In this document: one piece after another, positions 1 through 61,668 of the stretch
Position numbering within the stretch: the stretch's first letter is position 1
Layout: every line of letters starts with the position of its first letter
Assembly: GCF_004339465.1 (NCBI RefSeq)
Contig: NZ_SMFY01000001.1
Span: 1,116,001 to 1,180,000, forward strand
Source: Ancylobacter aquaticus
Lineage (GTDB): Bacteria; Pseudomonadota; Alphaproteobacteria; Rhizobiales; Xanthobacteraceae
Reading direction: 5' to 3'
DNA: 64,000 nt
Program-made: the position numbers and the translations under genes
Notes under the pieces: model-generated
Database searches by the model: none
What the model saw: only the letters and a program-made list of their open reading frames with translations
Told to the model about the DNA's origin: nothing

Positions 1-198
1 CGGCACGGTTTCCACCAGCCCCTCCGGCCGCGCCTCGGCCAGAAGGGCGGCGGTGCGGTGCACCAGCGCATTGATTGCGGGATCAATGCGGTCGCCGAAC
101 TCGACGGCGAAGGCGGTGTCGCCCACAGGCAGAAAGCGCGCGCGGGCGTCGATCCGCCTGGCCGTCATCGCCTGCCCGCCCGCCATACGTGCCCCCAT
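1..198 (-). CDS. pxpB: 5-oxoprolinase subunit B (PxpB/KipI-like), N-terminal part
   Basis: Runs off the left edge; 66 codons are visible. The reverse-strand product contains FLPVGDTAFAVEFGDRIDP and then AINALVHR, the hallmark start of the KipI/allophanate-hydrolase subunit 1 family. Three in-frame ATGs lie at 198, 186 and 168; the last gives MTARRIDARARFLPVGD, closest to the usual family start, so the true start may be 168. Known role: PxpB with PxpA and PxpC forms the ATP-dependent prokaryotic 5-oxoprolinase that opens 5-oxo-L-proline to glutamate. It is divergent from pxpA, so both share the 199-318 promoter region. PxpC would be expected further left, outside the window. Confidence 0.85.
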   Translation of the reverse strand, partial: MGARMAGGQAMTARRIDARARFLPVGDTAFAVEFGDRIDPAINALVHRTAALLAEARPEGLVETVP

Positions 199-318: not shown

Positions 319-1095
319 GTGGCGAAGCGCATGAATATCAACGCCGATATGGGCGAAGGCTACGGCCATTACGACATCGGCAATGACGACGCGATCCTGC
401 AGATCGTCAAGAGCGTCAATGTCGCCTGCGGCCTGCATGCGGGCGATGCGACGGTGATGCGCGACGTGTGCCTCAAGGCAAAAGCCAATGGCGTTTCGAT
501 TGGCGCCCATCCCGGGTTCAACGACATCTGGGGTTTCGGCCGCCGGCAGATACGCATGAACGCCGACGATCTCGAATATCTCGTCGCCTATCAGCTCGGC
601 GCTCTCGCCGGCATGGCGGCCTATGCCGGCGCCACGGTAACGCATGTGAAGCCGCATGGCGCGCTGAACAATATGTGCGCCGTCGACAGGGATTACGCGC
701 GGGCCATCGCGCGCGCCATCAAGGCGGTGGATCCCTCGCTCTATTATCTCGCGCTCTCCGGCACCGAGATGGAGAAGGCGGCACTCGACATCGGCGTGCC
801 CCTGTCGCGGGAGGCCTTCATCGACCGGCTCTATGAGGACGACGGTAATCTCCGCTCGCGCACCAATGCCGACGCGATGATCCGCGACCCCAAGGTCGCC
901 TCCGAGCGGGTGGTTCGCATGGTGCTCGACGAGGAGATCATCTCGGTGAACGGCAAGAAGATGCCGACCAAATTCGATTCGCTCTGCGTGCATGGCGACG
1001 AGCCGACCGCCATCGCGGTGGCGTCCGCCTGCTGCGAGGCGCTGCAGGCGGCAGGCGTCGAGCTTGTCACCCTGCCCGAGATGATGGCGGTCTGA
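319..1095 (+). CDS. pxpA: 5-oxoprolinase subunit A (LamB/YcsF family)
   Basis: 258 residues, the normal family length. The N-terminus MNINADMGEGYG is the LamB/YcsF signature; further family blocks are VACGLHAGD, GAHPGFND and HVKPHGALNN. The GTG at 319 has GGGAGG at 307-312, six bases upstream, which favours it over the ATG at 331. Known role: the PxpA component of cytosolic 5-oxoprolinase, which acts with PxpB and PxpC. Its stop is 4 bp from the FO synthase start, so the two are probably co-transcribed. That pairing is unusual, and the protein could instead act on a related lactam. The shared upstream palindrome suggests repression when substrate is absent. Confidence 0.88.
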   Translation: MAKRMNINADMGEGYGHYDIGNDDAILQIVKSVNVACGLHAGDATVMRDVCLKAKANGVSIGAHPGFNDIWGFGRRQIRMNADDLEYLVAYQLGALAGMAAYAGATVTHVKPHGALNNMCAVDRDYARAIARAIKAVDPSLYYLALSGTEMEKAALDIGVPLSREAFIDRLYEDDGNLRSRTNADAMIRDPKVASERVVRMVLDEEIISVNGKKMPTKFDSLCVHGDEPTAIAVASACCEALQAAGVELVTLPEMMAV

Positions 1096-1099
1096 GCCG

Positions 1100-3541
1100 A
1101 TGGCTGGAGCGCGAGGCGGGGCGGTTGTTTCCCCGGGCGAGCGCCTCGACGACGAGGCGGCCCTCGCGCTCGCGGATGAGACCGACCTCCTCGCGCTGAT
1201 GGCGCGGGCGGCGCGGCTGCGCGATGCCGGCTTTGGCAGCACCGTCACCGTCTCGCGAAAAGTCTTTATCCCGCTCACCCAGCTGTGCCGGGATGTCTGC
1301 CACTACTGCACCTTCGCCCATCCGCCCCGCAAGGGACAGCGGGCCTTCCTGACCCCGGAGGAGGTGCTGGAGATCGCCCGCGCCGGCGCGCGCATGGGCT
1401 GCGACGAGGTGCTGTTCACGCTCGGCGACAAGCCGGAGCAGCGCTATGGCGTGGCGCGGGAGGAACTGGCGGCGCTCGGCCATGCCAGCACGCTCTCCTA
1501 TCTGCGCGCCATGGCGGCGCTGGTGCTGGAGGAGACCGGGCTGCTGCCGCACCTCAATGCGGGAGTGATGGACGAGGCGGAGCTCGCCAGCCTGCGCGAA
1601 GTGTCCGCCTCCCAGGGGCTGATGATCGAGACCACAGCCGAGCGGCTTTCCGCCCGCGGCGGGCCCCATTTCGGCTCACCGGACAAGCTGCCGGCGGCGC
1701 GCCTCGCCACGCTGGAGGCGGCGGGGCGGGCGCGGGTGCCGTTCACCACCGGCCTGCTGATCGGCATCGGCGAGACGCGCCGGGAACGCATCGAGGCGCT
1801 GCTCGCCATCCGCGCATCGCATGAGCGGCACGGCCATGTGCAGGAAGTCATCATCCAGAATTTCCGCGCCAAGCCCGGCACCCGCATGGCAAACGCGCCG
1901 GAGCCCTCGCTGGAGGACCATTTGTGGACGGTGGCGGTGGCGCGCGTCGTGCTCGGTGCCGGCGTCTCGCTACAGGCGCCGCCCAATCTCCAGCCGGAGG
2001 GGCTGAAGGCGCTCATCGAGGCCGGCATCAATGATTGGGGCGGGGTCTCGCCGGTGACGCCCGATCACGTTAACCCGGAGGCGCCCTGGCCGGCGCTGGC
2101 GGCGCTGGGGGCGGCAACGGCCCAGGCGGGCAAGGCGCTCGCCCCGCGCCTCGCCGCCTATCCCGCCACCATCGCCGCCCGGGCGACATGGCTCGACGCC
2201 CGCGTGGCTCCCCTCGTGCTGCGCCGTGCCGACGCGGCGGGGCTGGCGCAGGAGAGCGGCTGGCGGGTGGGGGCGGCGGAGGAGGTCGCGCTCGTGGTCG
2301 ACTGGCCGGCCGCGCCGGCGCTGGCCGGGCCGGACCGCGCGCTCGATGGCGTTCTCGACCGGGCGTTTGCGGGGCGCGAACTGGGCGAGGCCGACATCGC
2401 TAGCCTGTTCGACGCGCGCGGCGACCGGGTGCGCCACGTCTTCGAGGCCGCTGACGCGCTGCGCCGCGAGGCGGTGGGCGACACCGTCTCCTATGTCGTG
2501 ACGCGCAACATCAACTACACCAATGTTTGCGCTTACAAATGCGGCTTCTGTGCCTTCTCCAAGGGGCGGCAGAACCAGCATCTGCGCGGCAGGGCCTATG
2601 AGCTCGACCTCTCCGAAATCCAGCGCCGCACGCGGGAGGCGTGGGAGCGCGGCGCCACCGAAGTGTGCATGCAGGGCGGCATCCACCCGGATTTCTCCGG
2701 CGAGACCTACCTTTCCATTCTGCGCGCAGTGAAGCAGGCCGTGCCCGGCATGCATGTCCACGCGTTCTCCGCGCTGGAAGTGCGCCACGGCGCGAAGACG
2801 CTCGGCCTTCCGGTGCCGGAATTCCTCCTGCGCCTGAAGGAGGCCGGGCTCGGCTCGCTGCCCGGCACGGCGGCGGAAATTCTCGACGACGAGGTGCGCG
2901 CGCTCATCTGCCCGGACAAACTGAACACGGACGAATGGCTGGAGACCGTGGGCGATGCCCATCGCGTGGGGCTCAAGACCACCTCGACCATCATGTTCGG
3001 CCATGTCGACAGCTACGCCCACTGGGCGCGCCATATGCTGCGCCTGCGCCGCCTGCAGGGGGAAACCGGCGGCATCACCGAATTCGTGCCGCTGCCTTTC
3101 CTGCACATGGAGGCGCCGCTTTACCTCAAGGGCGGCACCCGGCAGGGGCCGAGCCGGCGCGAGGCCTTGCTGATGCACGCGGTGGGGCGGCTCGCTTTGC
3201 ACCCGCTCATTCCCAACGTGCAGGCCTCATGGGTAAAGCTGGGGGAGGGCGGCATCGTCGATGCGCTGAGGTCCGGCGCCAACGACATTGGCGGCACACT
3301 GATGGACGAATCCATCAGCCGGGCCGCCGGCGGCACGCATGGGCAGGAGTTCCCGCCGGACCGGATGGAAGCGGCGATCCGCGCCGCCGGGCGGCTCGCC
3401 CGCCAGCGCACAACGCTCTACGCGGACGCGCCCTCGCGCCAGAAGCAGCGCTCCTATGCCGCCGAGGCGCTCAGTCCGCGCGTCGAGCCAGCGGCGGGCA
3501 AGTGGGCGAAGCTGGGGAGCCTGACGGCGCTGCGGGGGTAG
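1100..3541 (+). CDS. fbiC: FO synthase, fused CofG-CofH (FbiC-type)
   Basis: 813 residues with two radical-SAM domains in one chain. The first cluster motif is CRDVCHYC (Cys63, 67, 70), in the CofG half; the second is CAYKCGFC (Cys477, 481, 484), in the CofH half. Family blocks LFTLGDKPEQRYG, NLQPEGLKALIEAGINDWGG and MQGGIHPDFSGETY are plain. Known role: CofH joins 5-amino-6-ribitylamino-uracil and tyrosine, and CofG closes the ring to give FO, the deazaflavin chromophore of coenzyme F420. The fused form is typical of actinobacteria and also occurs in some proteobacteria. No other F420 gene (cofC, cofD, cofE) is in the window. A luciferase-like oxidoreductase of the F420-dependent type is encoded just downstream on the other strand, so a local use of F420 is inferred. 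Confidence 0.93.
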   Translation: MAGARGGAVVSPGERLDDEAALALADETDLLALMARAARLRDAGFGSTVTVSRKVFIPLTQLCRDVCHYCTFAHPPRKGQRAFLTPEEVLEIARAGARMGCDEVLFTLGDKPEQRYGVAREELAALGHASTLSYLRAMAALVLEETGLLPHLNAGVMDEAELASLREVSASQGLMIETTAERLSARGGPHFGSPDKLPAARLATLEAAGRARVPFTTGLLIGIGETRRERIEALLAIRASHERHGHVQEVIIQNFRAKPGTRMANAPEPSLEDHLWTVAVARVVLGAGVSLQAPPNLQPEGLKALIEAGINDWGGVSPVTPDHVNPEAPWPALAALGAATAQAGKALAPRLAAYPATIAARATWLDARVAPLVLRRADAAGLAQESGWRVGAAEEVALVVDWPAAPALAGPDRALDGVLDRAFAGRELGEADIASLFDARGDRVRHVFEAADALRREAVGDTVSYVVTRNINYTNVCAYKCGFCAFSKGRQNQHLRGRAYELDLSEIQRRTREAWERGATEVCMQGGIHPDFSGETYLSILRAVKQAVPGMHVHAFSALEVRHGAKTLGLPVPEFLLRLKEAGLGSLPGTAAEILDDEVRALICPDKLNTDEWLETVGDAHRVGLKTTSTIMFGHVDSYAHWARHMLRLRRLQGETGGITEFVPLPFLHMEAPLYLKGGTRQGPSRREALLMHAVGRLALHPLIPNVQASWVKLGEGGIVDALRSGANDIGGTLMDESISRAAGGTHGQEFPPDRMEAAIRAAGRLARQRTTLYADAPSRQKQRSYAAEALSPRVEPAAGKWAKLGSLTALRG

Positions 3542-3544
3542 GGG

Positions 3545-3622
3545 CCTGGCCCCGTTCGGCCAGGGAGAGATGGGCGTTAATCCGCATTATACCGTCATTC
3601 CGGACTTGGCCCGGGTATGACG
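3545..3622. terminator. Convergent intergenic hairpins, terminator or REP-like
   Basis: Two hairpins lie between convergent genes. CCTGGCC (3545-3551) pairs with GGCCAGG (3558-3564) around a 6-base loop. CGTCAT (3593-3598) pairs with ATGACG (3617-3622). Neither has a U-tract. The second resembles the CGTCAT...ATGACG palindromic intergenic repeats common in Hyphomicrobiales. Bidirectional termination is plausible but not shown. Confidence 0.45.
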
Positions 3623-3648
3623 ATGCGTTGGCAGGCGCCGGCGTGCCC

Positions 3649-4593
3649 TTACTTCCGCAGCAGCGGCAGCACTTCATGGGCGAGCAGGTCCACCTGCTCC
3701 TTCTCATAGCGCCACGGCACGAAGACGATCTTCTTCACTCCTGTCGCGATATGGGCGGCGATTTGCTCGGCGCATTCGGTCGGGGTGCCGACGATGGCGC
3801 TGTCGAAACTGGAGAGCGAGCCCTTGGACAGGTCCCATTCGGCGTTCAGCCATTCCAGCATCTTCGGCATGCCGGTCTCTCGCGGGCCGACATAGATCGG
3901 AAGCTGGTTGAGGCTGTAGAGATCGGCAGGGTCGCGGCCGGCCTCCTGCGCATAGGCGGATATCTTGCCCCACGCCTCGGTGTAGGATTCGGGCGTGTAG
4001 AAATAGGTCAGCCAGCCATCGCCCTTTGTGGCGGCACGCTTGAGCACGACATCGACATAGCCGCCGATGAGGATGGGCGGGTGCGGCTTCTGCACGGGCT
4101 TGGGGAACATCACCGCTTTTCGCAGGTCCAGTTCGTCCCATTGGCCGCTGACGGAATCCTCGGTCCACAACCGTTTCAGGATGTCGAGGTTGCGGTCCAT
4201 GATCTTGCCGCGTCGCTCATAGGGGATGCCGACGGCGTCGAATTCCCGCTTGTACCAGCCCACCGCCGCGCCGAGCATCAGGCGCCCGTTCGAGATCAGG
4301 TCGATGGTGGAGAGCTGCTTGGCCAGAATGACCGGGTTGCGCAGCGGCAGCACCAGCACGCCGGTGCCGATCTTGATCGTCTTGGTGCGCGCGGCCACGG
4401 CGGTGAGCAGGGAGAGCGAATCGAGGATCGGGAAATGCGGGTCGGTGCCGAGCAGGATGTGGTCCCACACCCACAGCGACTCGAAGCCGAGTTCCTCCAT
4501 CCGCACGCCATAGTCGATCAGCGCGCCCGCATCCGGCAGCTCGGGGAAGCGGGTGAAGTTGCGCATCGCGACGCCGAAGGCCGGTACACTCAT
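3649..4593 (-). CDS. LLM-class F420/FMN-dependent oxidoreductase
   Basis: 314 residues from the ATG at 4593. The longer in-frame extension upstream is arginine/serine/proline-rich shadow sequence that overlaps the neighbouring gene. Luciferase-like TIM-barrel blocks are GFESLWVWDHI, KIGTGVLVLPLRNP, LAKQLSTIDLISNGR, GAAVGWYKREFDAVG and PILIGG. These match the bacterial-luciferase superfamily group usually annotated as F420-dependent oxidoreductases (TIGR03619-like). Known role of the family: hydride transfer or oxygenation using reduced F420 or FMN; the substrate cannot be predicted. It is the last gene of a minus-strand operon, 31 bp after the CoA-transferase B subunit. The FO synthase across the convergent gap favours F420 as cofactor, but FMN remains possible. 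Confidence 0.8.
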   Translation of the reverse strand: MSVPAFGVAMRNFTRFPELPDAGALIDYGVRMEELGFESLWVWDHILLGTDPHFPILDSLSLLTAVAARTKTIKIGTGVLVLPLRNPVILAKQLSTIDLISNGRLMLGAAVGWYKREFDAVGIPYERRGKIMDRNLDILKRLWTEDSVSGQWDELDLRKAVMFPKPVQKPHPPILIGGYVDVVLKRAATKGDGWLTYFYTPESYTEAWGKISAYAQEAGRDPADLYSLNQLPIYVGPRETGMPKMLEWLNAEWDLSKGSLSSFDSAIVGTPTECAEQIAAHIATGVKKIVFVPWRYEKEQVDLLAHEVLPLLRK

Positions 4594-4624
4594 GATCGTT
4601 TCCACGCTTGCCGATGACGGCCGA

Positions 4625-5422
4625 TCAGGCCGTGTAAAGCTGTTCGGGGTCGAGTTCGCGCAGGATGGCGAGCTCGGTCGGGGTCGGTGCGGGCGTAACC
4701 TCGACATCGTCGGGCACGGGCAGCTCGAAGCCGGTATTGGCCTTGATGTCGGCGGCTGACACGCCGGGGTGGAGAGCCACCACCGTCATGGCGCGGCTCT
4801 CTGCCTCGAAGCCGAGAATGCCGAGATCCGTCACCACCCGGAACATGCCACCGGCGGGCAGGCCCGCCTGCGCCCGCGTGTCGCCGCCATCGATGAAGCC
4901 GGGCGAGGTGATGAAGTCCACCTTCTCCACGAAACGGCGCTTCTCGTGCTTCATGGCAACGATCATGTCGGCTAGCGAGGCTATGTCATTTCCACCGCCG
5001 GTGCCGGGAAGACGGATCTTCGGGTTTTCCGCATCGCCGATGAAGGAGGAGTTCAGATTGCCGAAACGGTCGATCTGCGCCCCGCCCATGAAGCCGACAT
5101 CGACATAGCCGCGCTGCAGCAGCAGCAGCACCTCGGTAATCGACACCAGCATGTTGGCGCGGCGCGAGCAGCGCTGCTCATTGGTGGAGGGCGGCAGCTT
5201 GCCCGCTTCCACGAACGGGCCGATCACCCCGCCCTCGAACAGGATAGTGAGGCCCGGCGCATGGGTCTTCTGCGCGAGAATGGCGGCCAGCAGCGGAATG
5301 CCGACGCCGGCGAACACGGTCTGCCCTTCCTTGAGCAGGCGCGCGCTCATCACCGCGAGCAGTTCGGAGCCGGTATAGGCCGGGGCTACGGAAAGGCTGA
5401 TGCGCGCGCGTTCAGTCGTCAT
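4625..5422 (-). CDS. CoA-transferase subunit B (glutaconate/IpdB type)
   Basis: 265 residues, the usual size for the beta subunit of heterodimeric class I CoA-transferases. FAGVGIPLLAAILAQKTHAP is typical, and LFEGGVIGPFVEAGKLPPS carries the Glu expected to form the acyl-CoA thioester. GTGGGNDIASLAD and VTDLGILGFE are further family blocks. The start at 5422 overlaps the end of the A subunit by 11 bp, so the two are translationally coupled. Known role: moves CoA from a donor thioester to a free acid; homologues act on glutaconate, and the IpdAB relatives do related CoA-ester chemistry on steroid rings. Here it is inferred to activate or process a carboxylic acid intermediate made by the adjacent PLP enzyme. 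Confidence 0.82.
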   Translation of the reverse strand: MTTERARISLSVAPAYTGSELLAVMSARLLKEGQTVFAGVGIPLLAAILAQKTHAPGLTILFEGGVIGPFVEAGKLPPSTNEQRCSRRANMLVSITEVLLLLQRGYVDVGFMGGAQIDRFGNLNSSFIGDAENPKIRLPGTGGGNDIASLADMIVAMKHEKRRFVEKVDFITSPGFIDGGDTRAQAGLPAGGMFRVVTDLGILGFEAESRAMTVVALHPGVSAADIKANTGFELPVPDDVEVTPAPTPTELAILRELDPEQLYTA

Positions 5423-6368
5423 AAATGCCACTCCCTCGCCGCTGGGCGTCGAGCAGTTCCGCCATGCCGATGCGGCTGAGATAGTCGGCCCAGTTCTTCG
5501 GCTCGTGATAGAAGCGGTCGAGATAGGCCCGTGCCCCCGCATCCGGGTCCTTCGCGGTCATCTGCGCGTAAAGATCCATGTGGCTGTAGAACGGCTCGTA
5601 GAGGCCGTAGCACTCGTGCGGCGCGCTGCCGAAGGGCACCTCGACCACGGCGTCGACCGTGAAGAAGCCGATCTTGGTCTGGTCCGGATGCCGGCGGATC
5701 TGCTCGTTGGAAACGATCCGCTCGGTGGTGAGGATCACCTTGTTGGCGGCCATCGCCATGTCGATGTCCATGAAGGTCAGCCCGTCGATCTGGGCGTTGC
5801 CATAGGCGTCGCAGCGCTGGACATGAATGATCGCCACCTCGGGGTTCAGCGCCGGCACCAGCAGCAGCGTCTCGCCGGTGAAGGGGCACTCCATCGTCCG
5901 GGCGCCCTCCGCGCGGTCCAGCACGCCCGAGCCGAGCATGGAGCGCATCGGCATGAAGGGCACGCCCATGGCCCCGGCGCGGTAGCGCAGGCCCATCGCC
6001 ATGTGGCTCCATTCCTCGAAGCGCGCGCGCTTACTCTCGGTATAGGCGCGCATCACCTTGGAGACGCCCCACACGATGCCCTGGCTGAACCATGAGGTGA
6101 TGATGTGGCGCGAAACGCCCGAGGCGTAGAGCAGGTCGCCCTCGGTGGAGACGATGGAGCGGGAGACCTCAAGGTCGCGCTTGCCGGCGCGGATCAGCGC
6201 CCAGATCATCGCGAACGGCGTGCGCGAGGCGGTGCAGCCACCGATGGCGAGGCTGTCGCCGTCCGCCACCAGCGCCGCGGCGTCCTCCAGCGACATCACC
6301 TTGTCGCGCAGGCTGCGGTCGCGCGCGCGGGTCTTTTCGCGCAGGTCGAGATAGGAGGGGGGTGTCAC
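5412..6368 (-). CDS. CoA-transferase subunit A (glutaconate/IpdA type)
   Basis: 318 residues, matching glutaconate CoA-transferase alpha subunits. Blocks seen: VADGDSLAIGGCTASRTPFA, LMGSGVL-like MLGSGVL, NPEVAIIHVQRCDAYGNAQI and TTERIVSNEQIRRHPDQT. The start is GTG at 6368 with AGGAG six bases upstream; the ATG two bases earlier is out of frame and hits a stop at once. It lies 9 bp downstream of the PLP enzyme and overlaps subunit B by 11 bp, so the four genes PLP enzyme-A-B-LLM form one unit. Substrate unknown; the conserved family points to a short or dicarboxylic acyl-CoA. Confidence 0.83.
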   Translation of the reverse strand: MTPPSYLDLREKTRARDRSLRDKVMSLEDAAALVADGDSLAIGGCTASRTPFAMIWALIRAGKRDLEVSRSIVSTEGDLLYASGVSRHIITSWFSQGIVWGVSKVMRAYTESKRARFEEWSHMAMGLRYRAGAMGVPFMPMRSMLGSGVLDRAEGARTMECPFTGETLLLVPALNPEVAIIHVQRCDAYGNAQIDGLTFMDIDMAMAANKVILTTERIVSNEQIRRHPDQTKIGFFTVDAVVEVPFGSAPHECYGLYEPFYSHMDLYAQMTAKDPDAGARAYLDRFYHEPKNWADYLSRIGMAELLDAQRRGSGIYDD

Positions 6369-6377
6369 ATGACTCTC

Positions 6378-7874
<1,497 letters not shown>

Positions 7875-7925
7875 GCGTTTCCTGCGAGGCGGCGAGCGAT
7901 GGTCGGCAACGCGACGAAATCATAT

Positions 7926-7939
7926 GATACTAATGATAG
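7926..7939. promoter_or_regulatory. Second copy of the pxp operator core
   Basis: GATACTAATGATAG lies 52 bp upstream of the PLP-enzyme start, in the AT-rich 7875-7974 gap behind livF. Bases 7927-7939 match 232-244 at 12 of 13 positions. A weak ACCA-T-TGGT palindrome follows at 7941-7949. The position suits an internal promoter or operator controlling the PLP/CoA-transferase/LLM genes together with pxpAB. Confidence 0.5.
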
Positions 7940-7974
7940 AACCATTGGTCCAAATTATTCTTATATCGCTGTGA

Positions 7975-8691
7975 TTAAATCGACAGGTAAGCCTCACTGA
8001 CGGTGGGGTCGCGGGCCAGTTCCGCCGAGAGGCCGGAGCGGGCGACACGGCCGTTCTCGACGATGTAGGCGCGGTGCGAGAGCTCGAAGGCGGTCATCAC
8101 ATCCTGCTCGACCAGCAGGATGGTCTGGCCGGCCCTGTTCAATGCCAGCAGCGCCTCGCCCAGATGCTCCACCATGCGCGGCGACAGGCCGAGCGAGAGT
8201 TCGTCGATCATCAGAAGGCGCGGGCGCGACATGATTCCGCGCCCGACCGCGCACATCTGCTGCTCGCCCCCCGACAGTGTGGTGGCGTCCTGGCGCTGGC
8301 GGTCGCTCAGGATCGGAAACAGCTCGAACACCCAGTCGAGGTCCCGCGCGATCGCCGCCCGGTCGGTGCGCAGATAGGCGCCGAGCATCAGATTGTCGCG
8401 CACGGTGAGGCCTCGGAACAGGCGGCGGCCCTCCGGCACATGGGCGAGGCCGGCCTTGAGCACGATATCGGGCCGCGCGCCGCCGATGCTCTCGCCGTTG
8501 AAGCGGATCGTGCCCGCCTGCGGAGCGATCTGCCCGGAAATGGTGCGCAGCAGGGTGGTCTTGCCGGCGCCGTTGGAGCCGACCAGGGCAACGATCTCGC
8601 CGGGCTGGGCCGCGAGGTCCATGCCCCACAGCACTCGGATCTGGCCATAGCCGGAGGTTACGCCTTCGAGCGCCAGAAGCGGCTCAGCCAT
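7975..8691 (-). CDS. livF: Branched-chain-type ABC transporter ATPase (LivF)
   Basis: 238 residues. Walker A is GSNGAGKTT, the signature LSGGEQQM, and Walker B LLMIDE followed by LSLGLSP, the LivF form. HVPEGRRLF is the characteristic Q-loop-side block of LivF. It overlaps livG by 8 bp. It couples ATP hydrolysis to import through LivHM at the inner membrane. It is the last gene of the five-gene transporter, and its 3' end lies 100 bp from the PLP enzyme read in the same direction. Confidence 0.92.
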   Translation of the reverse strand: MAEPLLALEGVTSGYGQIRVLWGMDLAAQPGEIVALVGSNGAGKTTLLRTISGQIAPQAGTIRFNGESIGGARPDIVLKAGLAHVPEGRRLFRGLTVRDNLMLGAYLRTDRAAIARDLDWVFELFPILSDRQRQDATTLSGGEQQMCAVGRGIMSRPRLLMIDELSLGLSPRMVEHLGEALLALNRAGQTILLVEQDVMTAFELSHRAYIVENGRVARSGLSAELARDPTVSEAYLSI

Positions 8692-9454
8692 GGTTGAGCT
8701 CCTTGAGGCGCGCGGCGAATTTGGCGCCGAGATAGGCTTCGATCACCCGCTCGTCGGCGACGATTTCCGCGCTCGGCCCATCGGCGATGAGCTGGCCGTA
8801 ATGCAGCACCAGCAGGCGCTTCGAGAGCGAGAGGACGACCTTCATCAGGTGCTCGATGATGAGCACCGTGACGCCGCGCTCGGCGATCCTGCGGATGAGG
8901 GCGAGGGCGCCGTCGATCTCGGACGAGTTGAGGCCGGCATTGACCTCGTCGAGCATCAGCACTTTCGGATTCATGGCGAGGCTTTTGGCGAGTTCCAGCC
9001 GCTTGCGCGCCGCCAGCGCCAGGTTGGCGGCGGGCCGGTCCGCCAGCCCGTCGAGTCCGACGAATTCGAGGCTCTGCATGGCCATGTCGCGCGCATCGCC
9101 CAGCGAGCCAGCGCCCGCGCCGAACAGCGCGCCGGCGGTGACGTTCTCCAGCACGGTCATGGCAGGAAAGGGCTGGACGATCTGGAAGGTGCGGGCGAGG
9201 CCGCGCCGGGCGGCCTGATAGGGCTTCTGCAGCCCGACATCCTCGCTTTTGAACAGGATGCGGCCGGAAGACCGGCGAAGATTGCCGGTCACGACATTGA
9301 CCAGCGTGGTCTTGCCCGCCCCGTTCGGCCCGATGAGGCCGACGACTTCGCCCTCGTTCAGCGAGAACGAGACGTCGGTGAGTGCGTTGAGCCCGCCGAA
9401 CTGCTTGGACACGCCGTCGAGGCACAGGATGGGCTGGATTGTCGGCGTGATCAC
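8684..9454 (-). CDS. livG: Branched-chain-type ABC transporter ATPase (LivG)
   Basis: 256 residues from a GTG at 9454 whose GTGA overlaps the livM stop. Walker A is GPNGAGKTT and Walker B VLMLDEVNAGLN, the LivG version. The ABC signature is LALAARKRLELAKSLA, where the canonical LSxGQ is degenerate, as is common in LivG. IIEHLMKVV contains the switch histidine. It partners LivF in the NBD heterodimer. Confidence 0.9.
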   Translation of the reverse strand: MITPTIQPILCLDGVSKQFGGLNALTDVSFSLNEGEVVGLIGPNGAGKTTLVNVVTGNLRRSSGRILFKSEDVGLQKPYQAARRGLARTFQIVQPFPAMTVLENVTAGALFGAGAGSLGDARDMAMQSLEFVGLDGLADRPAANLALAARKRLELAKSLAMNPKVLMLDEVNAGLNSSEIDGALALIRRIAERGVTVLIIEHLMKVVLSLSKRLLVLHYGQLIADGPSAEIVADERVIEAYLGAKFAARLKELNHG

Positions 9455-10413
9455 TTGCCGCCCTCCGCCTTTGCCGAGCCGGTCGCTGCGCGCAGGCGGC
9501 GCAGCACGCCGAGGCTGAGAAGCCCGCCGGGCAGGAAGAAGATCAGCAGCACGATGACGACGCCGAGAATGGCGCGGTTCCAGTCGAGGAAGTTCGCCCA
9601 GAACAGTTCTTCCAGCAGCACGAACGCCGCCGCGCCAAGAGCGGGGCCGAGGATGGTGCCGGCGCCGCCGAGCAGCGCCATGACGACGACCTTCACCGTC
9701 ATCACGATCTGGAAGGAATCGGTGGGGTCGATATAGCCGGTCCACGAGGCATAGGCCGCGCCCGCGGTGGCGCAGAACATGGCGGAGAGCGTGTAGGCCG
9801 CGATTTTGTAGGCGGTGGTGTTGATGCCCACCATGGCGGCGGCATCCTCGTTCTGGTGGATGCAGCGCAGGCCGAAGCCGAGGCGCGAACGGTCCACGAG
9901 GATCGTGGCGATGAGGCTGGCGAGGAGGATGCCGAGCATCACGAACAGGAAGAAGCGCATCAACTGCTCGGGCGGCCAGGCCATCAGCGGCAGGTTCAAC
10001 CCGTCGCCGCCCCCGGTCAGGCTCGACCAGGAGGAGACCACCAGCCGGCACAATTCGACCACGGCGATGGAGCCGATGGCGAAGTAATGGCCGCGCAGCC
10101 GCAGGATGATGCCGCCCAGCAGCGCGGCGAAGCCGGCCACCGTCACCGTCGCGATGGCCCAGGCGAGGCCCATCGGAATGCCGTTGCGCTGGCAGATCGC
10201 CCCGACATAGGCGCCGAGGCCGAAAAAGGCGGCGGTGGAGAAGGAGGGATAGCCGGTGAAGCCGCCGATGAAGTTCCACGACGTGGCGAGCGCGCCATAC
10301 ATGGCGACGATGGCCGCCGTCCGCACCACGTAATTATCGGCATAGAGCGGCGTGGTAGCGAGTATCAGCAGGCCGGCAACCATCGCTGCGTAAAGGGGAA
10401 ATCCGCTTCTCAT
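9451..10413 (-). CDS. livM: Branched-chain-type ABC permease (LivM)
   Basis: 320 residues, strongly hydrophobic with about nine predicted membrane segments. GGFTGYPSFSTAAFFGLGAY and LRLRGHYFAIGSIAVVEL are the LivM hallmark blocks, and VVMALLGGAGTILGPALGA near the C-terminus is the EAA-like cytoplasmic loop region. It overlaps livG and livH by 4 bp at each end. It forms half of the membrane channel. Confidence 0.9.
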   Translation of the reverse strand: MRSGFPLYAAMVAGLLILATTPLYADNYVVRTAAIVAMYGALATSWNFIGGFTGYPSFSTAAFFGLGAYVGAICQRNGIPMGLAWAIATVTVAGFAALLGGIILRLRGHYFAIGSIAVVELCRLVVSSWSSLTGGGDGLNLPLMAWPPEQLMRFFLFVMLGILLASLIATILVDRSRLGFGLRCIHQNEDAAAMVGINTTAYKIAAYTLSAMFCATAGAAYASWTGYIDPTDSFQIVMTVKVVVMALLGGAGTILGPALGAAAFVLLEELFWANFLDWNRAILGVVIVLLIFFLPGGLLSLGVLRRLRAATGSAKAEGGK

Positions 10414-11273
10414 TCGTACCCCCTCACGCCGACGAGGCCGGTGGGCCGGGTAAGTAGCAGCACCAGCATCAGCACGAAGCCGGCGGTGATCGCCTGCTGC
10501 GGACCGAACCAGTGCCCGGCGAAGCTCTCCACCAGCCCCAGCACCAGCCCGCCAACCAGCGCGCCCGGCACCGAACCGAGCCCGCCCACCACGCAGACCA
10601 CGAACGCCTTGCCGAGCCAGATGCCGGTGACGTTGGTGGTGATCGGGAACACGGTGGCGAACACCACGCCCGCCACGCCCGCCATCAGCGCGCCGATGCC
10701 GAAGGTGATGGCGTAGATGCGGTCGGTGCGGATGCCCATCAGTTCGGCGGCGGAGCGGTCCATCCTCACGGCGACAATGGCCCGGCCGATGGTGGAGCCG
10801 CGCATCACCGCATAAAGCAGCAGCGTCATCGCCAGAGCGAGGCCGGTGCCGATGAGCCGGTCCACCGGCAGCACGACGGAGCCCAGATGCACCGCGCCGA
10901 GATCGAGCGTGATCCGGCGCGGCGTGGCGGTGAACCAGTAGGTCATCGCGTTGTAGAGGATCATGTCGAGGCCGAAGGTCAGCGTCAGCGTCGTCAGGAC
11001 AGGCGCGCTGACCACCCGGTTGATCACCAGCTTCTGCAGCGTAAAGCCGAGCGCGAACATGAGCGCCGCCACGATCGGCAGCATCACCACGGGATGGATG
11101 CCGTAGAGATGCCAGGCGAAGAAGGTGAGGTAGCCGCCGAGGATGATGAAGGAGCCGTGGAGCATGTTGATGACGTTCAACACGCCCCAGACCAGCGAGA
11201 AGCCGACCGCCAGGCAGGCATAGAGCGCACCGAGCATCAGTCCGTTCGAAAGGATCTGCAGGTAGATCGCCAT
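10410..11273 (-). CDS. livH: Branched-chain-type ABC permease (LivH)
   Basis: 287 residues from the ATG at 11273 (MAIYLQILSNGLMLG, the family start); the 10-residue polar in-frame extension upstream is unlikely. LSNGLMLGALYACLAVGFSL, VINMLHGSFIILGGY and FVVCVVGGLGSVPGALVGG are LivH blocks. It overlaps livM by 4 bp; 103 bp separate it from the binding-protein gene upstream. Confidence 0.9.
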   Translation of the reverse strand: MAIYLQILSNGLMLGALYACLAVGFSLVWGVLNVINMLHGSFIILGGYLTFFAWHLYGIHPVVMLPIVAALMFALGFTLQKLVINRVVSAPVLTTLTLTFGLDMILYNAMTYWFTATPRRITLDLGAVHLGSVVLPVDRLIGTGLALAMTLLLYAVMRGSTIGRAIVAVRMDRSAAELMGIRTDRIYAITFGIGALMAGVAGVVFATVFPITTNVTGIWLGKAFVVCVVGGLGSVPGALVGGLVLGLVESFAGHWFGPQQAITAGFVLMLVLLLTRPTGLVGVRGYE

Positions 11274-11376
11274 GTCGCCCCTGTCGCTGGCCCGCCGTCG
11301 CAACCAGTGGGACGGCCGCGAGACTGAAGAAGGGCGCGCGCCGGGCGGGCCGGCGCGCGTGGGGGATGCGTGCCCG

Positions 11377-12600
11377 TCAGGGCATGGCGATCATGTCGGC
11401 GTTCTTGATCGCGGCGGGGGCGAGCACCTTGATGGCCCCGTCCTGCACCTGGATGATCGGCAGTTCGCGGGAAAGGTTCATGCCGTTGGGGCCGAACTTG
11501 ATCGGGCCGTAGAAGGTCTGGATGTCGGTTGCCGCGATGGCGTCGCGCACCTTGGCTTTGTCGAGCGAGCCGGCGCGGGCGAGCGCATCGACGATCACTT
11601 CGCCGGCCGCGGCGCAGGACCCATGAACATAGTCCGGGTCGCCCTTGGTGCGGGCCTTGAAGTCCTCGTAGAAGGCGGCGGTGGTCGGCCACACGCCCTG
11701 GCCTTCATAGGTGGTGAGATGGTGCCACCAGCTCGACGAGGAAATGCCGTTGGCCAACGGGCCGAGGCCCTGGGTGAATTCCGTGTAGGACGGGCCCGTG
11801 ACCATGGTGACAATCGGCGCGGTGATGCCGAGGTCCTGCATCTGCTTGCGCGCGAGGATGAGGTCCTGCGTGTAGCCGGTGATGTAGATCCAGTCCGGCT
11901 TGGCGGCCTTGATGGAAGACAGCGCGGCAGCATGGTCCATGGTGCCGACCGGGTAGAGCTCCTTGTAGGCGACCGTCAGCCCGCCGGCCTCGGCCGCCTT
12001 GGCGATGCCTTCCGCCATGGATTTGGGGAACACGTCGTCACGGCCGAGCACGGCGATCGACTTCGTTTCGGGGAACTTCTCCTTGAAGAATTTCACCATC
12101 GCGGTGGTCATGCCGCCATTGGGCGAGAGGGTGCCGAACAGATATTTCAGCGTCTGGTCGTAGACGCTCTCGGAGGAAGCGACGCAGGCGATGGTCGGCA
12201 CCTGGTAGCGCTCGCCGACGCCGGCGACGATCTTGGTGTGGCCCGAGCCGAAGGGCGAGAACAGGAACTGCACCTTGTCGTCATTGATAAGCTTTTCGGC
12301 AAGCTGGGAGGCCCGCTGGCCCTCCGACTGGTAGTCATATTCGATCAGCTCGACCTTGAGCTTCTTATCGCCGACCTGGATGCCGCCGGCGGCGTTGATC
12401 TTCTCGACCCACATTTTCCAGACGACATCCTGCTTGTGGCCTTCGTCGGCGAGGCCGCCGGTGAGGGCGAGCGGAGCGCCGATCTTGATCGTCTCCTGCG
12501 CCATGGCGGGGGCCGCCAGCGCAGCGGCAAGCAGGCCGGTGGCGACGCCGCCTGCCAGAAGGCTGGCGCGTGCGGAACGAAGGATACCGTGTGCGAACAT
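11377..12600 (-). CDS. Periplasmic binding protein, type 1 amino-acid ABC family
   Basis: 407 residues with a clear Sec signal peptide ending ALAAPAMAQ before ETIKIGAPLALTGGLADEG. This is the LivK/Peripla_BP_6 fold; the block ALTGGLADEGHKQDVVWKM and the INAAGGIQVGDKKLK segment are typical. It is the first gene of the transporter operon and delivers ligand to LivHM. The family binds branched-chain amino acids, amides, urea or aromatic acids, so the ligand is open. The downstream enzymes suggest an amino-acid-like or lactam substrate. Promoter elements are expected in the 12.6-13.0 kb gap. Confidence 0.88.
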   Translation of the reverse strand: MFAHGILRSARASLLAGGVATGLLAAALAAPAMAQETIKIGAPLALTGGLADEGHKQDVVWKMWVEKINAAGGIQVGDKKLKVELIEYDYQSEGQRASQLAEKLINDDKVQFLFSPFGSGHTKIVAGVGERYQVPTIACVASSESVYDQTLKYLFGTLSPNGGMTTAMVKFFKEKFPETKSIAVLGRDDVFPKSMAEGIAKAAEAGGLTVAYKELYPVGTMDHAAALSSIKAAKPDWIYITGYTQDLILARKQMQDLGITAPIVTMVTGPSYTEFTQGLGPLANGISSSSWWHHLTTYEGQGVWPTTAAFYEDFKARTKGDPDYVHGSCAAAGEVIVDALARAGSLDKAKVRDAIAATDIQTFYGPIKFGPNGMNLSRELPIIQVQDGAIKVLAPAAIKNADMIAMP

Positions 12601-13032: not shown

Positions 13033-13518
13033 ATGGAACTGACCGGCGCGCAACGTATCGAGGCTCCCCGCGAGGCGGTGTGGCGGGCCCTCAACGACCC
13101 TGACATCCTGCGGCAATGCATTCCCGGCTGCCAGGAACTGGCACAAGATTCGGCAACCGCCTTCACCGCGCGGGTCGTTCTCAAGATCGGGCCGGTGAAG
13201 GCCAGCTTTTCCGGCGCGGTGACGCTGTCCGATCTCGATCCGCCCCGTCGCTACCGCATCACCGGCGAGGGGCAGGGCGGCGTCGCCGGCTTCGCCAAGG
13301 GCGGCGCCGATGTCTGGCTGGAGCCCGAGGCGGACGGCGCCACGCTCCTGACCTATGCCGCGCAGGCCATGGTCGGCGGCAAGATCGCCCAGCTGGGGGC
13401 GCGGCTGATCGACAGCACCTCCCGCAAGCTGGCGGGCGAGTTCTTCAGCGCCTTCGCGCAGATCGTCGCCCCGCAACCGATCCCCGCGCCGCCCCTGCCC
13501 AGCGAGGCGGCGCCGTGA
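13033..13518 (+). CDS. CoxG/SRPBCC-family carbon monoxide dehydrogenase accessory protein
   Basis: 161 residues. [33 protein letters not shown] is the classic CoxG start, and [18 protein letters not shown] and [17 protein letters not shown] complete the SRPBCC fold. Known role: CoxG recruits assembly factors to the membrane in CO dehydrogenase maturation; close relatives accompany many molybdenum hydroxylases of the xanthine dehydrogenase family. It is followed 44 bp later by the 2Fe-2S subunit. The C-terminal proline/alanine tail is short, without an obvious membrane anchor. Confidence 0.85.
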
Positions 13519-13562
13519 TCGCCCCCGAACCGCCAGCGCCGCCGCAACACGGGAGTAGCGCA

Positions 13563-14099
<537 letters not shown>

Positions 14100-14108
14100 G
14101 AGCGCGCC

Positions 14109-14933
14109 ATGTTCGCCTTCACCTATCACCGCCCGGACACGGTCACGGCGGCCGTCGATCTGCTCCGCGCCCATGAGGAGGCCAAGCCGCTCGCCGGCGG
14201 CCAGACGCTGATCGCCACGCTGAAGCAGCGGCTCGCCGCGCCGAGCGACCTTGTCGACCTATCCGGCCTGCCGGCGCTGCGCGCCATTACCCTCGCGGAC
14301 GGACGCCTGATCATCGGCGCCATAGCCCGCCATGCCGATGTCGAGGCCTCGCCGACGGTGCGCGAGAGCCTGCCCGCGCTGGCGGCGCTGGCCGGGCTGA
14401 TCGGCGATCCGGCGGTGCGCAATCGCGGCACGCTGGGCGGCTCGATCGCCAATAACGACCCTTCCGCCGATTATCCCGCCGCGTGCCTGGCGCTCGCCGC
14501 CACCATCGTCACGGACCGCCGAGAAATCGCAGCGGCCGATTTTTTCACCGGCCTGTTCGAAACTGCGCTGGAGCCGGACGAGATCGTGGTTCAGGTCTCG
14601 TTTCCGCTCGGCGGGGAGGGGGCCTATGAGAAGTTCCGCAACCCCGCCTCGCGCTACGCCATGGCGGGCGTGTTCGTCTGGCGCGGAGACGCTTCGTTGG
14701 GTGAAACCGGCGTGCGCGTCGCCGTGACCGGCGCCGGGCAGGGCGGCGTTTTCCGCTGGAGCGAGGCCGAGGCGGCGCTCGCCGGCGCCTTCAATCCTGC
14801 GGCGCTGGAGAGCCTTGGCCTGCCGGCGGACGAGATGATCGCGGATATCCATGGTGGCGGCGCCTATCGCGCCCATCTGGTCCGCGAAATGGCCCGTCGG
14901 GCGGTGGCGCGATTGATGGCGGCCGCCGCGTAA
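14109..14933 (+). CDS. FAD subunit of a molybdenum hydroxylase (CoxM/XdhB-like)
   Basis: 274 residues, full length for the family. The FAD motifs are AGGQTLIA (about 29-36) and the later GTLGGSIANNDPSADYPAA. Known role: passes electrons from the 2Fe-2S clusters to the final acceptor. The expected 750-800-residue molybdopterin large subunit does not follow; the operon stops at 14933 and an IS5 relic begins at about 15 kb. The enzyme is therefore incomplete here unless a large subunit is supplied from elsewhere. Confidence 0.9.
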   Translation: MFAFTYHRPDTVTAAVDLLRAHEEAKPLAGGQTLIATLKQRLAAPSDLVDLSGLPALRAITLADGRLIIGAIARHADVEASPTVRESLPALAALAGLIGDPAVRNRGTLGGSIANNDPSADYPAACLALAATIVTDRREIAAADFFTGLFETALEPDEIVVQVSFPLGGEGAYEKFRNPASRYAMAGVFVWRGDASLGETGVRVAVTGAGQGGVFRWSEAEAALAGAFNPAALESLGLPADEMIADIHGGGAYRAHLVREMARRAVARLMAAAA

Positions 14934-28772: not shown

Positions 28773-29151
28773 GCCACGTTCCCTGAGCCGGCCGCATATC
28801 TTCGATTTGGGGGAAGTCGACACTGGTGGAAGCGCATCCTGTCGATGGCAGACGCTCCTCCGATGATCTTGCCCGAGGGCGCCGTGGCCTATGGCAAAGG
28901 CGACGCCTTTCAGCGGCGCGACTTCAACAGTTTCAGCGTAGCCGGCCAGATGGTCGCTGGCGAGGCGCTTTCCACCTTCTGCTTCATGTGGGCTCGGCGC
29001 GCCGGAACGGACGAACCGGCCGCGCCGACAGTCGGCCCCTGCCCCCCTCGACCGAGGTCCGTTGGGACCGAGATCCATGTTGCCCTGGCCGGCATGGTGT
29101 GCTGGTTGGACAGCGCCGCTTTGACCTGTCCCTGTTCGAAGAGTTGCACCA
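28773..29151. other. 379-bp gap, no gene recognised
   Basis: The stretch is open in several frames, including a plus-strand frame from 28845 and a long minus-strand one, but none matches a family I know and none has a good ribosome-binding site. It should contain the autotransporter terminator and the GH15 promoter; no strong hairpin with a U-tract is visible. Confidence 0.35.
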
Positions 29152-39267: not shown

Positions 39268-39451
39268 GGGGTCCTCGGTTCAGCCTTCACGGCGCGCGCA
39301 CACGCCGGCCTACAGCGCCGGGCGGGCGCCACAGGCCTTCCGTGCGGACAGGCGCTGGAGATGGCAGGCAGGGAGGACCGACATGGCGGCGCAACGCCGT
39401 CAGAGGGACCCGGGCCTCGGCTGTAAGGGGTTCAGGCGCCGCGTGGCAGTC

Positions 39452-61381: not shown

Positions 61382-61668
61382 GAGGAGCAATCTTCGCAAA
61401 GAGCGGGCGTCCGTCGGGAAGACGGAAAGGCAGCGCTGACTGTGCGTGGTCCGGCGGATCGGCGGCCGGAAGAGCCACCCGGGCTTTCACCGGGTCCAGA
61501 CGAGTAAAGGCTGCTTAGAACAGATCGTGCGGCGGTACAACGCCGGCCGGACGCGCCGACGGGGCATGCGCGTAATTATGCCGCACCGCACAATTCTCGG
61601 AACTCACGGCGTTCTCGGCACTTGTCCGGGGGTTAGGGCGTGCCGCCCTGAAACGCGCGAGGTCAGGC

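Follow-up and report, generated by a model that had tools for sequence, protein, structure and literature searches.

The locus analysed here raises the question why an alphaproteobacterium, Ancylobacter aquaticus, should carry the FO synthase of coenzyme F420 synthesis amid genes for an importer, a CoA transferase, a pyridoxal phosphate (PLP) enzyme and a lactamase, and whether these genes belong to one system. The locus occupies positions 319-12600 of a window of 64,000 nucleotides (positions 1116001-1180000 of contig NZ_SMFY01000001.1, here C1; genome 4.83 Mb). A preliminary description had read it as an F420-linked catabolic island. Its coupling to F420 proved to be well supported. On balance we think that it is probably a horizontally mobile, F420-dependent catabolic island, which would hydroxylate an N-heterocyclic acid, reduce it with F420H2 and open it in the form of a lactam or ureide, PLP-dependent and CoA-transfer steps being part of the route. 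The genes form two divergent transcription units, pxpA-fbiC on the plus strand and SBP-livH-livM-livG-livF-PALP-ctA-ctB-llm (SBP, periplasmic binding protein) on the minus strand:

1..159, minus strand: end of a pxpB-like gene (carboxyltransferase subdomain C/D); the remainder and pxpC are upstream of the window
319..1095, plus strand: PxpA-like subunit of an ATP-dependent lactamase; PF03746 (LamB_YcsF), 304 bits
1100..3541, plus strand: FbiC (CofG-CofH fusion), FO synthase; NF006687 (CofGH equivalog), 1134.6 bits against a cut-off of 1018
3649..4593, minus strand: LLM-class oxidoreductase, proposed F420H2-dependent reductase; TIGR03619, 202.2 against a cut-off of 166.9
4625..5422, minus strand: CoA transferase subunit B (CtB), GctB-like; PDB 1poi_B, 173 bits; likely start 5422, open reading frame (ORF) open to 5542
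5412..6368, minus strand: CoA transferase subunit A (CtA), GctA-like; PDB 1poi_A, 147 bits; PF01144
6378..7874, minus strand: CysK-like fold-type II PLP enzyme (PALP), 498 amino acids; PF00291, 40.6 against 35
7975..8691, minus strand: LivF-type ABC ATPase; PF00005
8684..~9454, minus strand: LivG-type ABC ATPase, from its translation; inside ORF 8684-10279, start approximate
9451..10413, minus strand: LivM-type permease; PF02653, 131 bits
10410..11303, minus strand: LivH-type permease; PF02653, 106 bits
11377..12600, minus strand: Liv-type periplasmic binding protein; PF13458, 204 bits

All families named in the preliminary description (FO synthase, LLM protein, glutaconate-type CoA transferase, fold-type II PLP enzyme and Liv importer) were confirmed. 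Its adjacent pxpAB pair needs qualification: pxpA is inside the feature, but only about 159 bases of pxpB fall within the window, and pxpC lies just outside. The outer part of pxpB was recognized by PF02682 (211 bits) and by a tblastn match at L004:431-1159. The LLM frame is open to 4707; judging from its relatives, translation is likely to start at 4593 (codon 39). The place of LivG gave a LivF-related tblastn match (29%).

A search with the LLM protein alone gave 163 relatives, of which the best 80 loci were kept; their ORFs were clustered and representatives were annotated. The locus counts include 20 extra flanking stretches for 14 loci and are lower limits, as contigs end. Fifteen of the 80 loci are from Ancylobacter or close to it (13 so named), which leaves 65 loci of non-Ancylobacter type. 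The structure alignments were built from 48 and 39 selected sequences, among them that of the window.

The 80 loci came from Alpha- and Betaproteobacteria, Nitrospinota, a Tectomicrobia contig and others. By tblastn, CtA was detected in 76, CtB in 77, PALP in 60 and FbiC in 43 of them, and at least one F420 gene in 44; with the Ancylobacter-type loci left out, FbiC was still present in 29 of 65. Two gene orders recurred: PxpA-Fno-CofE-CofD-CofC-FbiC-PALP-CtA-CtB-LLM-(SDH)-Liv, and PALP-CtA-CtB-LLM beside a divergent FbiC-CofD-CofE-Fno with M20, GntR and Mo-hydroxylase genes (Mo, molybdenum). Because the core is found again in further families and phyla, the island is more than a chance neighbourhood. 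That separate operons merely came to lie together in one genus would agree with the exchangeability of some parts and with the Liv importer differing between groups. For the core, however, this is contradicted by the recurrence in Alpha- and Betaproteobacteria, Nitrospinota and the Tectomicrobia contig, and with F420 genes on Sinorhizobium plasmids, and we find it scarcely credible. A group of loci, mostly from Nitrospinota (L048, L053, L054, L055, L061 and L079), combines the module with genes for UbiD-type decarboxylases and with a further LLM gene, in some of them also with a TAXI-type TRAP transporter gene.

The link to F420 was followed with the F420-type CofD model TIGR01819 in the genomes of the LLM loci (79 of 80, that of L031 being left out) and in samples of 385 genomes of the class, 179 of the order and 30 of the genus. 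CofD was found in 76 of the 79 genomes, 75 of them over the cut-off, against a class background of 62 of 385 (58 over the cut-off). All five CtA-bearing genomes of the class sample were CofD-positive, as were all four of the order sample, where CofD occurred in 18 of 179. Within the genus, the same 22 genomes have both CtA and CofD and the other 8 have neither; for independent species such agreement would have a probability of 1.7e-7, but the species are not independent. The agreement cannot be put down to close linkage alone, since in several genomes the two genes are far apart (more than 1 Mb in G650, 39-50 kb in G657 and G659) or on different contigs (G640, G645, G648, G653, G658 and G661). 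Two of the 30 genus members, G647 and G660 (loci L132 and L133), encode a CtA just 66-67% identical to that of the window, in an island of other build with Fno instead of Fgd, M20, diaminopropionate (DAP) ammonia-lyase and an SBP2-type importer. This is most likely a separate acquisition and looks like replacement by horizontal transfer. Together with the neighbourhoods of the LLM loci, the CofD co-occurrence thus upholds the proposed F420-linked island with a core recurring across taxa. Independent occurrence of the blocks was not seen for CtA-CtB-LLM with F420; the PLP enzyme and the importer do partly behave in this way.

The genome of A. aquaticus contains a complete set for F420 synthesis: FbiC, CofC (139.8 bits, cut-off 105), CofD (296.9, cut-off 257.45) and CofE (Pfam, 149.8 against 25, scored on part of the gene). 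The cofC, cofD and cofE genes, which the preliminary description had suggested looking for elsewhere in the genome, are thus all present. They lie in the upstream extension of the island, which is larger than the block in the window and begins about 21 kb before it. The upstream DNA also encodes Fgd (L002:16685-17689), a sugar-type ABC set, a GMC oxidoreductase and a phosphoribosyltransferase. Also located there are the gene for an orphan large subunit of a Mo-enzyme, those for a Mo-hydroxylase of three subunits (L003:13061-17516) and for a GntR regulator of HutC-like type, pxpC and pxpB. Fgd scored above its equivalog cut-off (TIGR03554, 491.8 against 420) and sits directly before cofE; it adjoins cofEDC in all eight fetched relatives with the usual island. 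Fgd couples the oxidation of glucose-6-phosphate to the reduction of F420, as described in the available part of a review (PMC8498797). No Fno exceeded the TIGR01915 cut-off in this genome (best 20.6 against 149.8). Fno is present in 29 of the 65 non-Ancylobacter-type loci, where the one representative scored was over the cut-off. In four betaproteobacterial loci, LLM is followed downstream by acyl-CoA carboxylase-like genes and then by a pntAB pair; the Sinorhizobium plasmids also have pntAB.

The LLM protein, whose nearest named relatives are from Ancylobacter species (80-96% identity), scored above the curated cut-off for F420-dependent LLM proteins, as did the Sinorhizobium member (190.4). 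A structure was predicted with a pLDDT of 91.9, and a fold search with this model placed F420 and FMN (flavin mononucleotide) enzymes side by side among the top matches, without separating the two kinds. FMN monooxygenases ranking as high as F420 enzymes would suit an FMN-dependent LLM protein, F420 serving another enzyme and the catabolic and cofactor genes being merely co-inherited. This is very unlikely in view of the agreement of CtA and CofD in 30 of 30 genus members even where the genes are far apart, of the score over the F420 family cut-off, and of Fgd or Fno being part of many islands. The LLM protein probably consumes F420H2 and is hence probably a reductase. We infer this direction from the built-in F420-reducing enzyme, Fgd here and Fno in many other islands, which makes an F420H2-dependent reduction likelier than an oxidation. 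In the opposite case the LLM protein of the same island would act oxidatively, as an F420-dependent alcohol dehydrogenase, and Fno would make NADPH from F420H2. F420-dependent alcohol and sugar dehydrogenases are indeed among the LLM relatives, several of them among the fold matches, and Fno and PntAB are reversible. Against this, the partner in the own genome is an Fgd above its equivalog cut-off, with no Fno over the cut-off, and a second F420-reducing enzyme is hard to explain if the LLM protein also yields F420H2. We consider the oxidative version unlikely.

The series of import, PLP chemistry, CoA activation and oxidation proposed earlier holds only in part: the LLM protein is likelier to reduce, the Mo-hydroxylase was missing from the list, and importer, PLP enzyme and lactamase are exchangeable. 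The Mo-hydroxylase is a recurrent part of the island, its large subunit being present in 41 of the 80 loci. The nearest solved structure is quinoline 2-oxidoreductase (1t3q, 512.6 bits; CoxL, 453.8 bits), an enzyme hydroxylating the carbon atom adjacent to the ring nitrogen. A second Mo-hydroxylase is apparently split: a CoxG-like gene (identified by eye) and the small and medium subunit genes lie at window positions 13033-14933 with no adjoining large subunit, and the orphan large subunit mentioned above (L003:10638-12989) is about 20 kb upstream, on the opposite side of the island. Possibly, the operon of this enzyme was the site into which the island inserted.

PxpA belongs to NCBIfam subfamily NF003814 (328.1, cut-off 226) and stayed below three 5-oxoprolinase equivalog cut-offs (268.3 against 392, 241.1 against 337 and 201.5 against 378); PxpC likewise remained below its equivalog cut-off (224.9 against 500). 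Since both miss the curated cut-offs, the lactam need not be 5-oxoproline: as far as the sequences can tell, PxpABC may work like a lactamase on a different substrate. In other islands the place of the amide hydrolase is taken by an OPLAH/caprolactamase-like enzyme or an M20 deacylase instead of PxpA(BC). Exactly one of the three is encoded in 42 of the 65 non-Ancylobacter-type loci and two in 2, and a PyrC-type (dihydroorotase) gene is additionally present in Sinorhizobium. The importer is replaceable too; there are two different Liv sets, and some loci have TRAP- or TctC-type genes.

PALP has a conserved C-terminal part of its own, as seen in the alignment, and its fold is nearest to cysteine synthase, with beta-cyanoalanine synthase among the best matches. 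Its place can be taken by another CysK-like enzyme (10 of 80 loci, six of them Nitrospinota/Nitrospinae records) or by DAP ammonia-lyase. The latter is encoded without PALP at L063 and L067 and on the Sinorhizobium plasmids; in the stretches covered for three Afipia-type genomes, the two enzymes occur together. As this place is shared by CysK-like enzymes and DAP ammonia-lyase, and a serine dehydratase is present in seven loci, a beta-substituted alanine or a diamino acid is suggested near the end of the pathway. The approximately 500-residue CysK-like enzyme is also found solo (L085, L086, L087, L088 and L090), among other places on conjugative plasmids from Rhizobium and Bosea. Its neighbours are then arginase-family genes, ectoine-type genes, or M20 and TauE, with GGT and RidA in one case. 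These contexts hint at beta-substituted or diamino acids and at no single compound. Of the PALP contexts, L089, L092, L093 and L096 are truncated by contig ends, and the PALP of L091 is split in two.

The CysK-like nature of PALP, and isolated PALP genes on two plasmids near TauE and M20, one also near GGT and RidA, are compatible with a sulfur or glutathione-conjugate pathway, in which the 5-oxoprolinase would act on 5-oxoproline and the PLP enzyme would be a cysteine-S-conjugate lyase. Such a pathway, however, leaves no place for the Mo-hydroxylase and F420, and PxpA and PxpC miss the 5-oxoprolinase cut-offs. Moreover, GGT and TauE were not among the recurrent annotated genes of the F420 islands, in an annotation with no search aimed at them. 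We rate it marginally below even the FMN-dependent alternative.

By sequence, the CoA transferase belongs to the glutaconate-type class I. Both subunits are present with 1poi as their best PDB match, and the Glu aligned with a Glu of 1poi_B, which we take to be the catalytic residue, is E in 70 of the 71 members of the subunit B cluster, with one gap. An IpdAB-type ring hydrolase was rejected for CtA/CtB, the structure matches being weaker (77 against 147 and 71 against 173 bits) and the subunit B Glu being kept. A CtA relative (40% identity) is encoded on the haloarchaeal Natrinema plasmid NZ_CP100757.1 (1578075-1578983). Since haloarchaea make F420, the module may reach further, into this group.

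From these parts we infer the following order of steps for an F420-dependent degradation of an N-heterocyclic acid. The Liv-type (or other) importer would take up the acid. The CoA transferase would form a CoA thioester, its acyl part being either the heterocycle or a dicarboxylate that arises later. The Mo-hydroxylase (L003:13061-17516) would oxygenate the carbon beside the ring nitrogen to give a lactam or cyclic ureide, and the LLM protein would reduce the ring with F420H2. PxpABC (elsewhere an OPLAH-type or M20 enzyme, plus the PyrC-type enzyme in Sinorhizobium) would open the amide, and the PLP enzyme (elsewhere DAP ammonia-lyase or the other CysK-like enzyme) would eliminate nitrogen or another beta-group to yield pyruvate-type products. 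FbiC, CofC, CofD and CofE would make F420, and Fgd, elsewhere Fno, would reduce it.

Several observations weigh against this scheme. The kind of substrate is itself deduced, and the CoA transferase cannot be assigned to a single step. An oxidative direction is also conceivable for Fno and pntAB, and the fold search does not tell F420 from FMN binding. No amide hydrolase was present in the stretch seen in 21 of 65 loci, and 8 of 80 have none of the three PLP enzymes; five of these 8 end at contig ends, L017, L043 and L074 do not. PALP occurs without CofD in 5 of the 12 PALP-bearing genomes of the class, with no CtA or LLM in their fetched stretches. Three of the 79 LLM genomes (L023, L062 and L065), all metagenome bins and all with CtA, gave no CofD match. 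Finally, only 5 of the 62 CofD-positive alphaproteobacterial genomes carry CtA, so F420 has other uses in the class.

A known system close in enzyme logic is the reductive uric acid pathway (XdhD-YgfK-SsnA-HyuA-YgeW-YgeY-YgeX in E. coli), which, as far as the accessible text describes it, shares a Mo-enzyme, reductive dearomatization, hydrolysis of ring amides, an M20 enzyme and a fold-type II PLP lyase with the island; an F420/LLM variant was predicted there for Chloroflexota (PMC12507026). The island could accordingly be an aerobic F420 version of reductive purine or uric acid breakdown, with Mo enzyme, reductive dearomatization, ureide hydrolases, M20 and DAP ammonia-lyase, and some islands do carry DAP ammonia-lyase, M20 and PyrC-type genes. 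On the other side, no SsnA-, HyuA- or YgeW-type gene was seen to recur among the annotated clusters (an Amidohydro_1 cluster is in 2 of 80 loci; no dedicated search was made), and M20 falls far below the cut-offs of the YgeY models (126.1 against 321 and 89.9 against 321.5). The island adds full F420 synthesis and a glutaconate-type CoA transferase without obvious use in a purine pathway, and its Mo-enzyme is nearest to quinoline 2-oxidoreductase. We think this version quite unlikely, somewhat more so than the oxidative one.

Anaerobic indoleacetate degradation follows the same logic as the proposed F420-dependent pathway: a lactam formed by a Mo-hydroxylase is opened by a 5-oxoprolinase-like enzyme that depends on ATP, and CoA activation comes next. 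Unlike the island, it involves, to our knowledge, no F420, LLM protein or PLP lyase. Actinobacteria share the F420H2-dependent reductions and Fgd or Fno as supplier; there, according to the part of the review available, F420 is widely used (PMC8498797), whereas here its synthesis lies within, or travels with, one catabolic island. In line with the earlier impression that the combination matches no known pathway, no paper describing the island as a pathway was found in the open-licence literature, within the portions of text covered.

A counterpart was found in Sinorhizobium. A 26-kb pSymA region, common only to S. meliloti GR4, KH35c and KH46 in the panel studied, carries k-mers associated with nodule occupancy, an association drawn from 13 strains (PMC8407117). 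The genes listed for it are FbiA, FbiC, FbiB, FbiD, LivF, GctA/B, LLM, a Mo-binding dehydrogenase, PntAB, DAP ammonia-lyase, PyrC, M20 and GntR. In the accessible part of that paper the functions are listed singly, the role of F420 is said to need attention, and the region is presented neither as one pathway nor in connection with other taxa (PMC8407117). We found the set from PyrC to GntR on GR4 pRmeGR4c (L121), on two other S. meliloti plasmids and on the one S. fredii plasmid examined (L118-L120). The pSymA plasmids of KH46 and KH35c carry CtA, and twelve Sinorhizobium plasmids match CtA at 64-65%. The 26-kb region corresponds to this island; the nodule association does not prove causation by the island.

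A more far-reaching version of the proposed pathway appears possible but doubtful to us. In it, the island would be a 'cofactor plus pathway' cassette for the aerobic, F420H2-driven reductive dearomatization of a widespread diaza- or aza-heterocyclic carboxylate, would be the main reason why several proteobacterial lineages keep F420, and would help rhizobia win nodules. Routes of this kind might lead, for example, from imidazole-4-carboxylate via a cyclic ureide to ureido- or diaminopropionate, or from pyrrole-2-carboxylate via 5-oxoproline. Imidazole-4-carboxylate is one coherent candidate substrate, and nothing beyond a candidate, for two reasons. 2-Imidazolidone-4-carboxylate is a 5-oxoprolinase ligand. 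YgeY and YgeX together convert albizziin to pyruvate, according to the available text (PMC12507026).

Elsewhere in the window, ARAGORN predicted a selenocysteine tRNA at 28878-28970; the genes flanking it are for an autotransporter and a GH15 glycosidase, and the few neighbours scanned showed no selenocysteine machinery. Rfam matches were a sul1 RNA (61445-61500, minus strand, 76.3 bits) and a terC RNA (39369-39421, minus strand, 42.7 bits). A scan for promoters and terminators gave 2 and 4 sites, the numbers expected being 1.3 and 5.6.

A 2021 review, in the part available, names as an open question why newly recognized producers, Proteobacteria among them, synthesize F420 (PMC8498797). The island combines synthesis of the cofactor with an apparently undescribed pathway that apparently needs it, and so offers a testable reason for F420 in some soil- and plant-associated bacteria. 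As F420 synthesis and one catabolic module are either both present (22 of 30 genomes) or both absent (8 of 30) in the genus, the question why F420 is made becomes a growth experiment. In Sinorhizobium, the match would replace a statistical association by a specific hypothesis, the use of a plant- or soil-derived N-heterocyclic acid.

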